From a virus: a DNA stretch of 21,091 bases. Location: the IMG/VR virus record IMGVR_UViG_3300028045_000130, positions 1 to 21,091 of that record; one strand, given 5' to 3'. Positions within the stretch are counted from its first letter, which is position 1; each line of letters begins with the position of its first letter. The translations under genes and the position numbers were made by a program. The notes beneath the pieces were generated by a model that had not been told where the DNA came from, ran no database searches, and saw only the letters and a program-made list of their open reading frames with translations. Shown here one piece after another: positions 6,797 through 11,303 of this stretch.

Positions 6797-8269
6797 ATGT
6801 CTTCATCAAATTTAGTGCGAGTAACATTCGCAAAAGAAACAACTTATGGGACCATTCCAACTGCTGTGTACTCAACAGTTGTGATTCAAGATTTAACTTT
6901 CACTGCTGTATTAGCAGGTACTGGTCAAGACGCAATTAGTATTGAGTATACCAACACAGGTACTGCTGGCGCAGAGACTGTTGTAGTTACTGGTAACGCA
7001 ATTGTTATAGACATTCAATCAGGTACTTCAACGGCTACTCAAGTGAAAGCTGCTTTTGATGGTAGCGCCGCCGCAATTGCTTTAGCGGCTTGTACTATTT
7101 CTGGAACTGCTGGAACAGCTCAAACAACTCAAGGTCCTACAAATTTAGCAACAGGTGCTGGTGGGTTTTCAACATCTAGATTTACTTCAGAAGCTTTAAG
7201 TGGAACTCCTGACACTGTTGAGTCAGCTCAAATTAGAGTGGATAGATTATCAAGTGGTCAAGTGGTTACAGGTCTTACAGTTGGTGGAGCAATCAATTTT
7301 GAATTAGCTAAAGAAGCTGCGATTGATTCCATGTTAGAGAGTGCTCTTTTTAACACCTTCGTTTCAACAGCTGCTGTAGTAGTGGGTTTGACTTTAGATT
7401 CAACATTAAAAACAATCACTCGCGCAGCTGGAAGTTTCGTGACTGAAGGTTTAGTCATTGGTGACATTATAGTTCTTTCAGGTGGTACAGCAAATAACAA
7501 TGTAGAGGTTGTTGTTTTAGACGTAACTGCTTTAGTAGTTACTTATCAAGGTCCTGCTGGAATGACTAATGACACACCAACTGGTTATCAACTTGCTGAT
7601 AAATTAGAAGTTGGGATTAACAAACAGTCTTTCTCAATGGAGAAAACTTTCTTAGATCTTACAACTAAAGCTATTAATTATAGTGGGATGATTGTTTCAG
7701 AAATGGAATTAAATGTTGCCTACGGTGAGTTAGTGACAGGTTCTTTTACATTTTCTGGAAACGGTTATGAAGCTGTAGAAGCTGCTGCTGATTTCAACAC
7801 TTACTTAAGAGAGATCACTGACCCTGCGACTTCCAACTCTATGAACGGTTCAATTGATATGCCTTTCTTAGTTACAAGTGCCGACGGTACTTTGGGTGAT
7901 GATGACTTTTGTATTCAAAACATTTCTTTAAGTTTGAATAACAACCTGACTCCTCAAAACTGTATTGGTCTTGCGGCACCTCAAAGTTACTCTGAAGGTA
8001 CGGCTCAAATCGGTGTGTCTCTAAGTACATATCTTAAAGATGCGGCTTGGCAGTTATTAGGTAAGAAACTATCTCAAGAAGCTTTCGGTTTAGGTTTCAT
8101 TGTTAAGAACACTGGGGGATGGTACGGGTTTTATATGCCAGCAGTTCAGGTGTCTTTTGATGATCCTGCTTCAGGTGGGCAAAACCAAGATGTAATTCTA
8201 GAAATGGAAGGTACAGCTAAGGTTGGCGTAAACGGGGAAAAATCTATTTATATTTACAAACTAGGATAA
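6797..8269 (+). CDS. Major tail (tube) protein with inserted domain
   Basis: A 490-residue protein. The beginning (VRVTFAKETTYGTIP) and the segment FSTSRFTSEALSGTP at about residues 124-138 are the two halves of the usual tail tube N-terminus. They are separated here by an extra domain of about 95 residues (25-120) with the pattern LTFTAVLAGTGQDAISIEY, VTGNAIVIDI and TATQVKAAF, a module found in many phage virion proteins. The rest fits tube proteins: FELAKEAAIDSMLESALF, a GDIIVLSGGTANNNVEVVV strand pair at about 220-240, and a C-terminal beta-rich part. The start follows GGGG at six bases. It is followed by the frameshifted chaperone and the tape measure, the standard order. The inserted domain probably projects from the tube surface. 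Confidence 0.85.
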   Translation: MSSSNLVRVTFAKETTYGTIPTAVYSTVVIQDLTFTAVLAGTGQDAISIEYTNTGTAGAETVVVTGNAIVIDIQSGTSTATQVKAAFDGSAAAIALAACTISGTAGTAQTTQGPTNLATGAGGFSTSRFTSEALSGTPDTVESAQIRVDRLSSGQVVTGLTVGGAINFELAKEAAIDSMLESALFNTFVSTAAVVVGLTLDSTLKTITRAAGSFVTEGLVIGDIIVLSGGTANNNVEVVVLDVTALVVTYQGPAGMTNDTPTGYQLADKLEVGINKQSFSMEKTFLDLTTKAINYSGMIVSEMELNVAYGELVTGSFTFSGNGYEAVEAAADFNTYLREITDPATSNSMNGSIDMPFLVTSADGTLGDDDFCIQNISLSLNNNLTPQNCIGLAAPQSYSEGTAQIGVSLSTYLKDAAWQLLGKKLSQEAFGLGFIVKNTGGWYGFYMPAVQVSFDDPASGGQNQDVILEMEGTAKVGVNGEKSIYIYKLG

Positions 8270-8273
8270 TGTC

Positions 8274-8323
8274 TCTAGATTAGTTGAAACACATAAGGAG
8301 ATATGTATGAAAACTAATCTAGA
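8274..8323 (+). promoter_or_regulatory. Perfect 12-bp inverted repeat enclosing the chaperone RBS and start codon
   Basis: TCTAGATTAGTT (8274-8285) is exactly complementary in reverse to AACTAATCTAGA (8312-8323). Within the 26-base loop a second five-base stem, ACATA (8291-8295) with TATGT (8302-8306), leaves AGGAGA (8296-8301), the ribosome binding site, in the six-base apical loop. The ATG at 8307 falls in the internal loop between the two stems. The right arm lies in codons 2-6 of the chaperone gene. The pairing is seen in the sequence. A role in controlling translation or RNA processing between the tube and chaperone genes is inferred. There is no U-run, so a simple terminator is unlikely. 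Confidence 0.6.
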
Positions 8324-8702
8324 TCAATTTTTTAAACTAGACGATCAAGCATCTAAAGACGGTAAATGGGTTCCTATTTCAGAAGGGGTTGAGTTCTTAG
8401 TTAAACCTTTTAAGAAAAGTAATCCTCAAATTAAAAAAGCCTTAGAGATTCATTATAAGCCCTACGCTAGGCAAATCGAAATGGGTTCACTATCAGATGA
8501 GAAAGCTCAAGAGATTGAGATTAAAATCTTTGTTAACTCATGTATAGTTGATTGGAAGGGTATTGAGATTGATGGTGTTGTTCAGCCATACAACTCTGAT
8601 TTAGCCATTACTCTACTTGAGAGTTTACCTGAGTTATTTGACACTTTGATGCGGTATGCCGAAGATTCAAATAACTATAAAGAAGTCTTGGGAAACTCTT
8701 AA
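8307..8702 (+). CDS. Tail assembly chaperone, short form (lambda gpG-like)
   Basis: A 131-residue protein with the pattern of siphovirus tail chaperones: EFLVKPFKKSNPQIKKAL at about residues 28-45, then a helical middle, IVDWKGIEIDGVVQPYN near 74-90, and LLESLPELFDTLMRYA near 98-113. These proteins bind the tape measure and help tube subunits assemble, and they are absent from the mature virion. The gene sits between the tube protein and the tape measure, exactly as lambda G does. The ATG at 8307 has AAGGAG six bases before it, inside a hairpin. It ends at TAA 8700-8702, only four bases after a slippery heptamer, so part of the ribosomes should continue in the -1 frame. Confidence 0.85.
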   Translation: MKTNLDQFFKLDDQASKDGKWVPISEGVEFLVKPFKKSNPQIKKALEIHYKPYARQIEMGSLSDEKAQEIEIKIFVNSCIVDWKGIEIDGVVQPYNSDLAITLLESLPELFDTLMRYAEDSNNYKEVLGNS

Positions 8703-9046
8703 GACGGTACTTAGTCTGGTATAATAAGTGGGCTGAGAAAATACCGTCGGGTTTTTACGATAACTTACTACAGAAAGGTTTCCTAGCCGATGAAGATAGG
8801 GAGCCTTACATAGGTCCCTACGAATTTTACCTTGAAGCGTTCTTTGAATTATCAAGTTGTCGCCAAATAGGTATGGACATTGGTCCTATTCCATTTACAT
8901 CTATACTGGAGTATTTTAGAGTATATGAATTAGGGGAATTTGATGATTTCTTATACATCATGCGACTTTTAGATAATACTTTGTTAGAATTATCTAGAGA
9001 GAAAAATAAAGCGTCGGGGAAAGATAGTGGCAAATCTAAAAACTGA
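8307..9046 (+). CDS. Tail assembly chaperone, long frameshift form (lambda gpGT-like)
   Basis: The second reading frame is open from 8681, just after a TAA at 8678-8680, to TGA 9044-9046. It has no ATG in its first 190 bases and no ribosome site, so it must be reached by a -1 slip at 8690-8696. The product joins 130 residues of the short form (through 8696) to 116 residues read from 8696, giving about 246 residues. The added part (LLRRYLVWYNKW, then PYEFYLEAFFEL, SSCRQIGMDIGPIP and FLYIMRLLDNTLLEL) has the helical 'R..g..ig.Ip...i..y' pattern of chaperone T-domains. It ends in a Lys/Ser-rich tail. The T part binds tube subunits in lambda. It overlaps the tape measure start by 20 bases. Confidence 0.85.
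8690..8748 (+). other. Programmed -1 frameshift signal: GGGAAAC slippery site plus two-part stem-loop
   Basis: The heptamer G GGA AAC at 8690-8696 is in the correct phase (X XXY YYZ) for a -1 slip. After a six-base spacer a stem starts: GACGGTA (8703-8709) pairs with TACCGTC (8742-8748). After a four-A bulge (8738-8741) an inner helix of about nine pairs, including G-U pairs, joins 8710-8718 with 8729-8737 around a ten-base loop. The phase, spacing and structure all fit the standard design, and lambda G/GT uses the closely similar GGGAAAG. Confidence 0.88.
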
Positions 9047-11303
9047 AATTTTAAGGATTATCGCTGACGTAAAAGGTGAGCGACAAATTAAAAAGCTTGC
9101 TAACCAAATGGGTTCACTTAATAAGAACACCAAGTCCATGGCTGGTAGCTTTAAGTTTTTAAGAAACGCTTCTATTGCCTGGTTCGGTGCTATGAGGCTT
9201 GGTGAAATTGTTAGAATGTCAGATACCATGCAACAGCTGGGTGACAGGATTGAAGTGTTAAGTGGTGGTACTGCTGACGCAGGGGAAACTTTCACTAAAC
9301 TTCGTTCAGTAGCTAAAGACACTCAGTCATCTCTAGAATTAACGGCTAAGACTTATACGAGGTTGGCTGCTGCTATTGGTGGAGCTGGGATTGAGACTGA
9401 CTTTTTAATTAACTTAACTAAAGTATTACAAGACTCGTTCTTGGTAGCTGGTGCGAGTCTTAAAGAGACTGAGGCTACTATAGTACAGCTTGCCCAAGCC
9501 TTTGCTTCTGGTGAAGTACGTGGTCAAGAATTACGTTCGGTCATGGAACAAAACGCTGTTGTAGCCAAACTCTTAAGAGAAGAATATGGAAAAGATATTT
9601 ATAAAAAAGCTGCAACAGGGGCCATTGGCGCATCTGATGTTTTAAAGATTTTATTTGATAATCAAGAGAAGCTAGCTAAACAAGCTAAAGATATAAAGCC
9701 TACCATTGAGAAAACAATCGTTGCGGCTTTAGATGGGATTAGAGAGAGTATATTCAAATTAAATGATGAGTGGGGTATATCAAGTAAGTTTGCTAAAAGT
9801 TTAGAATGGTTGATAGGTAAATTTACTCTATTTGCATTTTTAATAGGGACTGGCGCTGTAGTAGCCTTAGCTGCTATGTCATCTACTATATTAACCACTG
9901 CAATACCAGCGGTGATATCTTTTGGTGAGACTTTATTGTTGATTACCCTATTGAACCCTTGGGCTACATTAGCTACAGGTCTACTTGTTTTTACGGCTGT
10001 TGCGATTAAAAATTTAGACACTCTTGAGGCAAAATTCAAGAGATTTGAAGCGTTCATGTCTGACCTTCAAATCTCTTTATTCAAATTTCAAAAACTTTTA
10101 ATTTCACCTTTTGATAAAAATAAAGACAAAGTGGGGAAGAGATTAGATGACAGCATAGCAAAGAATATTGAAAGATCAAAAAAATTAAGAAAGGAAGCTG
10201 ATAAACTTGAAAAAGGTGATAAAGGTGGTTTCAAAGGTCTCAGTAAAGACAAATTACAAAGTCAATTAGACTTACTTAAAAGTAGGTATGGTGCAAATGC
10301 TGAAAAACTTTCTGGTGCTGTATCTTTACTTAATTTGGCTTTTAAAGAAGGTAGTTTTTCAGCAAGAGATTACTTTAGTGAACTCGGCAAAGCTAAGTTA
10401 GCTGACCTTAATCAGCAGTTTTATGATGGGAAAATAACACTTGATGCTTATAATAAGTCCTTAACGGATATTAAAAAAATAAGTGTTCAGCAAGCATTCA
10501 ATCAAGGCGCTATAAGTGCAACACAGTTTAAAGAAGTGTTGGATAGTTTAAAGCTGGAAGACATGAAGATTCAATTAGACGCTGGTAAGATAAGCTTACA
10601 AGAATATAATAAAGAATTAACTAAAACTTTTGAAGCACTTGATTTTAGTACTTACAGTACTGTTTTTAAATCTGGCGCTGAAACTTTTCTTAGTAACCTT
10701 AAAACTATGGGTGAAGGTGTAGCTGAAACTTTTAGTAAAGCTTTTGGTTCTTTAGAAAATGAATTATTCGACATGGTGAAAACAGGTAAGTTTGAGTTTA
10801 ATAGATTTGCACAATCTATCTTAGATGATTTATTAAAAATTATTATCAGATTGCAAATCATCGCACCTTTAGCTAGAGCTATTACAGGTGGAAGTGGAGG
10901 TTTAAGTTTAACTCCAGGAGCTGACCCAACACTCTCAGCGGCCAACGGTGCGGCTTTTAATCAAGGTGGTATAAGAGCCTTCGCATCAGGTGGGGTAGTA
11001 AGCTCACCAACATTATTTAATTATGGATCTAAGACTGGGTTAATGGGTGAAGCTGGGCCTGAAGCAATACTCCCCTTATCAAGAAGTAATGGTAAGTTAG
11101 GAGTTGAAGCATCGGTCAATCCTGTGAATATTAATATTATAAATAATAGTGATACTGAGATAACAACAGCAGAGACTTTTGGTTCTAATGGTGAGAGAAA
11201 TATTGAAGTTGTAATTGAGTCAAAAGTTAGAGAAGGTTTATCCAAGGGTACTTACGATAAACAATTAAGAAGTAATTTCGGCATATCTAGAAAGGGTTAC
11301 TAA
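9027..11303 (+). CDS. Tail tape measure protein (lambda gpH-like)
   Basis: A 758-residue protein. The N-terminal tape measure domain spans about residues 55-215, with SLELTAKTYTRLAAAI and the diagnostic LAQAFASGEVRGQELRSVMEQ region near 155-175. A long hydrophobic block at about 267-327 is consistent with two or three membrane-seeking helices. Charged coiled coil follows (about 345-440), then four 26-residue repeats (439-542). The C-terminus has the lambda-type motif FASGGVVSSPT...LMGEAGPEAILPL at about 650-684. Translation begins at GTG 9027 with GGGGA six bases before it. Only this start lies near the beginning of the frame. The protein sets tail length, fills the tube and is released during DNA ejection. 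At the usual 1.5 angstrom per residue the tail would be about 0.11 micrometre. Confidence 0.92.
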   Translation: MANLKTEILRIIADVKGERQIKKLANQMGSLNKNTKSMAGSFKFLRNASIAWFGAMRLGEIVRMSDTMQQLGDRIEVLSGGTADAGETFTKLRSVAKDTQSSLELTAKTYTRLAAAIGGAGIETDFLINLTKVLQDSFLVAGASLKETEATIVQLAQAFASGEVRGQELRSVMEQNAVVAKLLREEYGKDIYKKAATGAIGASDVLKILFDNQEKLAKQAKDIKPTIEKTIVAALDGIRESIFKLNDEWGISSKFAKSLEWLIGKFTLFAFLIGTGAVVALAAMSSTILTTAIPAVISFGETLLLITLLNPWATLATGLLVFTAVAIKNLDTLEAKFKRFEAFMSDLQISLFKFQKLLISPFDKNKDKVGKRLDDSIAKNIERSKKLRKEADKLEKGDKGGFKGLSKDKLQSQLDLLKSRYGANAEKLSGAVSLLNLAFKEGSFSARDYFSELGKAKLADLNQQFYDGKITLDAYNKSLTDIKKISVQQAFNQGAISATQFKEVLDSLKLEDMKIQLDAGKISLQEYNKELTKTFEALDFSTYSTVFKSGAETFLSNLKTMGEGVAETFSKAFGSLENELFDMVKTGKFEFNRFAQSILDDLLKIIIRLQIIAPLARAITGGSGGLSLTPGADPTLSAANGAAFNQGGIRAFASGGVVSSPTLFNYGSKTGLMGEAGPEAILPLSRSNGKLGVEASVNPVNINIINNSDTEITTAETFGSNGERNIEVVIESKVREGLSKGTYDKQLRSNFGISRKGY
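10341..10652 (+). repeat. Four tandem 26-residue (78-base) repeats in the tape measure protein
   Basis: Residues 439-464, 465-490, 491-516 and 517-542 align without gaps. Each begins [Phe/Leu]-x-x-Gly-x-[Ile/Phe]-[Ser/Thr], has an aromatic at the eleventh position and Leu at the fifteenth. Openings are FKEGSFS, FYDGKIT, FNQGAIS and LDAGKIS. The DNA copies have diverged, so the repeat is visible only at protein level. The pattern suggests short helical hairpins. Confidence 0.75.

Follow-up and report, generated by a model that had tools for sequence, protein, structure and literature searches.

Phages with long tails require many tube subunits along with a controlled dose of tail assembly chaperone, and make both from adjoining genes. 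Discussion of how expression steps down from tube to chaperone has mostly concerned the frameshift at the chaperone gene's end. The virus analysed here (IMG/VR record IMGVR_UViG_3300028045_000130; the window is the whole stretch studied, 21,091 nucleotides) directs attention to the other end of that gene, where a perfect inverted repeat encloses the start. What might this hairpin do, and how do related phages manage the same boundary?

In the window, a tail tube gene on the plus strand (6797..8269; Pfam and PHROG matches to Phage_tube_2, PF18906 and PHROG 290) is followed on the same strand by the gene for the short form of the tail assembly chaperone (8307..8702; 131 aa, matching PHROG 313/8233). 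Near the end of the latter lies the slippery heptamer G GGA AAC (8690..8696, plus strand) for a -1 frameshift; the same heptamer occurs in 43 of 48 junction loci, and 4 further loci have AAAAAAC in its place. The -1 frame extension (8696..9046, plus strand; Pfam match to Phage_TAC_18, PF23812) overlaps the start of the tape measure gene (9027-11303). These matches and the conserved slippery site bear out the tube and chaperone identities proposed in a first-pass annotation of the DNA. The gene order (tube, chaperone, tape measure) and the -1 frameshift to a long form, here at G GGA AAC, are those of lambda-type G/GT. The lambda-type frameshift controls the end of the gene, whereas the window's hairpin is at its start, and we know of no start-site hairpin in the usual description of lambda-type G/GT chaperones.

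The inverted repeat at the chaperone start

The tube stop (8269) and the chaperone ATG (8307) are separated by a gap of 37 nt, and the hairpin takes up all but its first 4 nt. The left arm of the outer stem, TCTAGATTAGTT (8274..8285, plus strand), is intergenic and starts 4 nt past the tube stop codon. It pairs perfectly with the right arm, AACTAATCTAGA (8312..8323, plus strand), across a loop of 26 nt, so the perfect 12-base repeat reported earlier is fully complementary. The right arm lies in chaperone codons 2-6 (K-T-N-L-D), where the protein sequence is conserved.

For positions 8250-8350, RNAfold gives a minimum free energy of -21.1 kcal/mol, with z = -3.4 relative to dinucleotide shuffles, and the structure is the nested one that had been claimed. 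Inside the 12-bp outer stem is a 5x5 symmetric internal loop, formed by GAAAC on the 5' side (8286..8290) and by 8307..8311 on the 3' side, the latter containing the ATG (8307-8309). Then come a 5-bp inner stem (ACATA, 8291..8295; TATGT, 8302..8306) and a hexaloop, AGGAGA (8296..8301), which is the Shine-Dalgarno sequence; all of these are on the plus strand. The idea that the hairpin presents the Shine-Dalgarno sequence in a loop thus survives in part: both it and the ATG are in loops, but this does not amount to free access, because the ribosome's mRNA track must melt the paired codons 2-6.

Perfect arms of at least 12 bases are seldom expected by chance: over 1500 dinucleotide-shuffled copies of the window, they occurred on average 0.074 times per window with loops of up to 40 nt, close to an earlier estimate of about 0.05, and 0.11 times with loops of up to 60 nt. 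At this particular start, a stem of at least 12 bp enclosing the Shine-Dalgarno sequence arose in 17 of 60,000 trials (about 3e-4) in which the coding side and the Shine-Dalgarno sequence were held fixed and the gap was shuffled. At 12 bp, the stem also leads a survey of 231 gene starts from the window and its relatives: the next longest perfect stem around a start has 9 bp.

It is not the window's sole repeat of this kind, because two others lie inside the tape measure gene. One is a perfect 13-bp inverted repeat at 10038-10077, AAGAGATTTGAAG/CTTCAAATCTCTT, with a 14-nt loop and a 40-nt fold of -16.9 kcal/mol; the other, at 10298-10364, is a perfect 12-bp repeat, TGCTGAAAAACT/AGTTTTTCAGCA, with a 43-nt loop. 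Together with the hairpin, the window holds three perfect repeats of at least 12 bp against 0.11 expected (P about 0.0007). Either structure has been selected at several places or this genome is prone to inverted repeats.

The same boundary in related phages

Scans of IMG/VR and GTDB yielded 47 distinct related junctions besides that of the window, the closest chaperone being 57% identical. An intrinsic terminator lies between tube and chaperone in 35 of these 47 relatives (33 found by a simple scan; L028 and L042, with a long loop or a bulge, recognised by eye in the same output). The rest of these 3-9 kb loci has few such terminators, and in most loci the one at the junction is the sole example. 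Junction terminators are found 20-160 nt 5' of the chaperone ATG in loci L002-L066 (e.g. L003:2941-2965 and L005:2932-2954), have a GC-rich stem followed by a T-run, and mostly end 35-50 nt before the ATG. Where the junction gap is 50 nt or less, as in the window, there are no terminators; at 65 nt or more, nearly all junctions have one. The suggestion in the first-pass annotation that expression drops between the two genes therefore gains support from the relatives.

A second element accompanies the terminators. The sequence TTGAC is present in 31 of 48 junctions, against 4.6 expected, and lies at -48 to -69 from the ATG in 27 of 38 long-gap junctions after removal of near-copies. Depending on the locus, it falls within the terminator or after it (examples are L002, L003, L005, L009, and L046). 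Hexamers resembling a -10 element are commoner 16-18 nt 3' of TTGAC than in shuffles (P 0.006), yet they are weak in many loci, and the box was accordingly rejected as a strong sigma-70 promoter. Nonetheless, TTGAC is perhaps a promoter -35, which would place a putative module of terminator plus promoter between tube and chaperone. The window's junction has no predicted terminator and no TTGAC box.

Comparable structures exist in some cultured phages whose chaperone is distant. A similar junction hairpin with a T-rich tail is present in Pseudomonas phage Ab26 and in Stenotrophomonas phage Bhz59, both of which share the window's gene order. In Bordetella phage MW2, Caulobacter phage CcrPW, and Microcystis phage Mwe-JY26 there is a junction hairpin with no clear T-rich tail, and metagenome-derived phage ctUnS216 has no such hairpin at the junction. 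An incomplete literature search found no paper on a terminator or hairpin at the tube/chaperone junction. Two junctions among the relatives are unusually long: L054:2233-3000 (on the same contig as L014:2810-3576) has a tube-chaperone gap of 767 nt, seemingly with an extra reading frame, which from its length and place we guess is perhaps an HNH-type endonuclease insertion, and in L032:1996-3000 a 1005-nt gap, perhaps also holding an inserted gene, precedes the chaperone.

The window's own hairpin is not conserved. Its 12-bp stem is in none of the 47 related junctions, identical arms with a 20-34 nt spacer have no exact match in IMG/VR, and a nucleotide search of cultured phages with tube plus chaperone as query gave no match. 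Rfam returned nothing at gathering score, the best weak match being on the other strand at 20.5 bits against 57. With no homologous structure among the relatives from which covariation could be read, and no Rfam match, the hairpin does not behave as a conserved structured RNA family. The first-pass annotation had proposed looking for compensatory changes in relatives and had named their absence as grounds for refutation. The pairing is in fact missing from almost all relatives, with no base-pair compensation. This tells against conservation of the hairpin, and less so against its function, as most relatives have a terminator and one (L029) has another start hairpin.

L029 is probably the window's sister, as the two group together in the chaperone tree with moderate support (bootstrap/SH-aLRT 80/83). 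It too has neither a terminator nor a TTGAC box, and it has a strong hairpin of its own at this start, unlike the window's. Among orthologs, fold z-scores for -45..+25 are -4.2 for the window, -4.0 for L006, and -3.8 for L029, the next being -2.6. Strong start-region structure thus recurs at the chaperone gene in these three. The hairpins of L029 and L006 are no evidence of homology, because they differ from the window's in sequence and register. At L006:2960-3002 the structure is a different 9-bp hairpin, TGCCCTATC/GATAGGGCA, which includes part of the Shine-Dalgarno sequence and the chaperone start, and this locus has an upstream terminator too. Such a hairpin is not required at a short junction, since the short-gap loci L020, L044, L055, L056, and L048 have neither a terminator nor a strong start hairpin.

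Predicted action of the hairpin and competing explanations

In exactly the place of the hairpin, most relatives have a transcription stop, and this suggests a role for the hairpin in limiting how much chaperone is made after the abundant tail-tube protein. Both are stem-loops in the same place that would be expected to lower chaperone expression after the tube gene. However, the relatives' terminator is transcriptional and GC-rich with a T-run, whereas the window's hairpin is AT-rich and encloses the start. The reading we favour, tentatively and at a little under even chances, is translational control: the hairpin would clamp the chaperone start, be opened by ribosomes terminating on the tube gene, and stand in for a lost terminator module.

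Predicted opening costs bear on the clamp. For -12..+12, the stretch that has to be open in the ribosome's mRNA track, the cost is 12.4 kcal/mol, whereas the median chaperone start needs 5.2; the window's start ranks 20th of 236 on raw values and 4th of 236 after adjustment for GC. The strict Shine-Dalgarno and ATG region (-16..+5) is average at 7.3 kcal/mol against a mean of 7.1; it is not unusually hard to open because both elements sit in loops. Wider opening costs that include the Shine-Dalgarno sequence rank 20 to 49 of 236 without GC adjustment.

Opening of the clamp by ribosomes finishing the tube gene is suggested by the 4-nt spacing and by simulated coverage that opens the outer stem. 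A terminating ribosome has a footprint of about 12-15 nt past the stop. When ribosome coverage beyond the tube stop was simulated as a block of 12 or 15 nt, the outer stem fell from 12 bp to 4 or none, and the energy rose from -19.4 to -6.4 (12 nt) or -4.6 kcal/mol (15 nt). In this model, the tube stop is near enough for its ribosome to disrupt the stem. Translational coupling of the unfolding type is known at such spacings, as in Escherichia coli rpmI-rplT at +52 nt (the window's stop-to-start spacing is +37), and phage f1 VII-IX is another example, although structure just past a stop codon can also reduce coupling (PMC12548453). In those systems the upstream ribosome can disrupt structure at the downstream start, as it may in the window; their coupling has been measured (PMC12548453), whereas the window's is inferred. 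The window's arm also differs from theirs in lying wholly outside the upstream gene, within reach only of the terminating ribosome's footprint.

The favoured mechanism, start clamp with translational coupling, would run as follows. On free full-length RNA, the Shine-Dalgarno sequence would lie in the small loop, while codons 2-6 and the upstream flank would form the 12-bp clamp. A ribosome landing independently would have to melt about 12 kcal/mol, and the chaperone would be made sparingly. A ribosome ending the tube gene would cover part of the left arm, open the clamp, and render the chaperone start usable, whether a new ribosome initiates there or the same one reinitiates 37 nt downstream. 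The chaperone would then be made as a damped, tube-dependent fraction, and the hairpin would do in translation what the terminator with its TTGAC box would do in transcription in most relatives. Of the three functions guessed at in the first-pass annotation (dose tuning, processing, and protein binding), the tuning of chaperone dose fits best and is partly borne out, by the junction comparison and not by any conservation of the hairpin; nothing found here favours the other two.

Its most serious competitor, though we consider it unlikely, is that the repeat owes its perfect arms to chance or to a template switch that copied the conserved chaperone start, inverted, into the gap, and that it has little or no regulatory effect. 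The hairpin's absence from every relative found would fit, as would the window's excess of long perfect inverted repeats, which extends to the tape measure gene (3 against 0.11 expected), and the average opening cost of the Shine-Dalgarno and ATG region. Moreover, 18 of 22 positions flanking the 6-nt Shine-Dalgarno loop match between the arms, as expected of an inverted copy that later changed. Such an origin is harder to square with a per-start probability of about 3e-4 and with the strong hairpins that relatives keep at the tube/chaperone junction. Apart from terminators at that junction (L004, L015/L016), the loci of the relatives contain no perfect repeat of at least 12 bp, and in the probable sister L029 the start region likewise folds strongly.

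A promoter switch like that of T4 gene e has rather less to recommend it, and we regard it as quite improbable. RNA reading in from the tube gene would carry the clamp, and a promoter in the left arm would yield a short clamp-free RNA (from about 8288), the only one freely translated. In T4, the long transcripts of genes e, soc, 49, and I-TevI have hairpins at the start site; two of these genes, e and I-TevI, operate by a switch in which a late promoter, lying in or close to the 5' arm, provides a short RNA that lacks the arm (PMC3014915, PMC2988022). Like the window's, these phage mRNA hairpins have the 5' arm upstream of the Shine-Dalgarno sequence and the 3' side over the start region, and on long read-in RNA they are predicted to block initiation (PMC3014915, PMC2988022). 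The T4 helices, however, contain the Shine-Dalgarno sequence and/or the AUG, and T4 has a strong late promoter in the 5' arm (PMC3014915, PMC2988022), whereas in the window both start elements are in loops, codons 2-6 are paired, and there is just a weak promoter-like site. This site, TTTACA-N17-TAGATT (8253..8281, plus strand), has its -10 (8276-8281) in the left arm, lies at -54, and scores 9/12; its function is doubtful. It is placed like the TTGAC box of the relatives, for which the position (-48 to -69 in 27 of 38 long-gap junctions) and the better-than-shuffled -10 matches (P 0.006) lend the switch some support, and an RNA beginning no earlier than 8286 is predicted to need about 4.2 rather than about 12.4 kcal/mol for opening. 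The switch nevertheless stays a minor rival, because such sites are no commoner than in shuffles (14 in the scanned region against 18.4, with a consensus that may not fit the host's sigma factors) and because TTTACA lies within the coding sequence of the tube C-terminus; the TTGAC box itself is absent. The window's hairpin would work like known start-site and coupling hairpins, which does not establish membership of the T4 e class.

The remaining explanations place the hairpin's action elsewhere. RNase III sites in phage T7 have two stems with an internal loop between cistrons, and the same layout here could mark a processing site of that type splitting tube mRNA from chaperone mRNA; with an inner stem of just 5 bp, a cut that would hit the chaperone start, and a structure kept in no relative, this seems very unlikely. 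Hardly credible is a transcription terminator or attenuator made of the hairpin and TTTTTT at 8328-8333. Relatives do have terminators at this junction and the T-run is 4 nt past the stem, but the scan did not call it, the T-run encodes FF in a coding stretch common to the relatives, and termination there would fall inside the chaperone gene. With 3 G-C pairs, a 26-nt loop, and a T-run set off by a 4-nt spacer, the hairpin was rejected as an intrinsic terminator. Just as far-fetched is a protein-binding site, whether for autoregulation by the chaperone on RNA or as a DNA operator: the arms are symmetric and binding had been proposed earlier, but there is no Rfam family, the chaperone is conserved where the hairpin is not, and no second copy of the arm exceeds chance in the window. 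As a repeated operator the arm was discarded, with 6 matches at up to 2 mismatches against 3.7 expected.

Implications for the tube-to-chaperone step

Beyond the single hairpin, this family has a conserved terminator/TTGAC junction that is absent from the window's lineage. Control by a start-site hairpin is already known in kind, and the window's version, if it acts in this way, would be new. A broader scheme, which we put forward as possible though on the unlikely side, is that two interchangeable devices serve the boundary: a terminator-plus-promoter module in most members, and start-site hairpins that would tie the chaperone to tube translation in the window and L029. Control of stoichiometry would then have moved from transcription to translation, with structures that arose independently in each phage. 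While attention has centred on the end of the chaperone gene, the sequence comparison points to a second control at its start, exerted by a terminator in most relatives and by a hairpin in one lineage. If true, this would be a natural case of one expression step met by either transcriptional or translational means.
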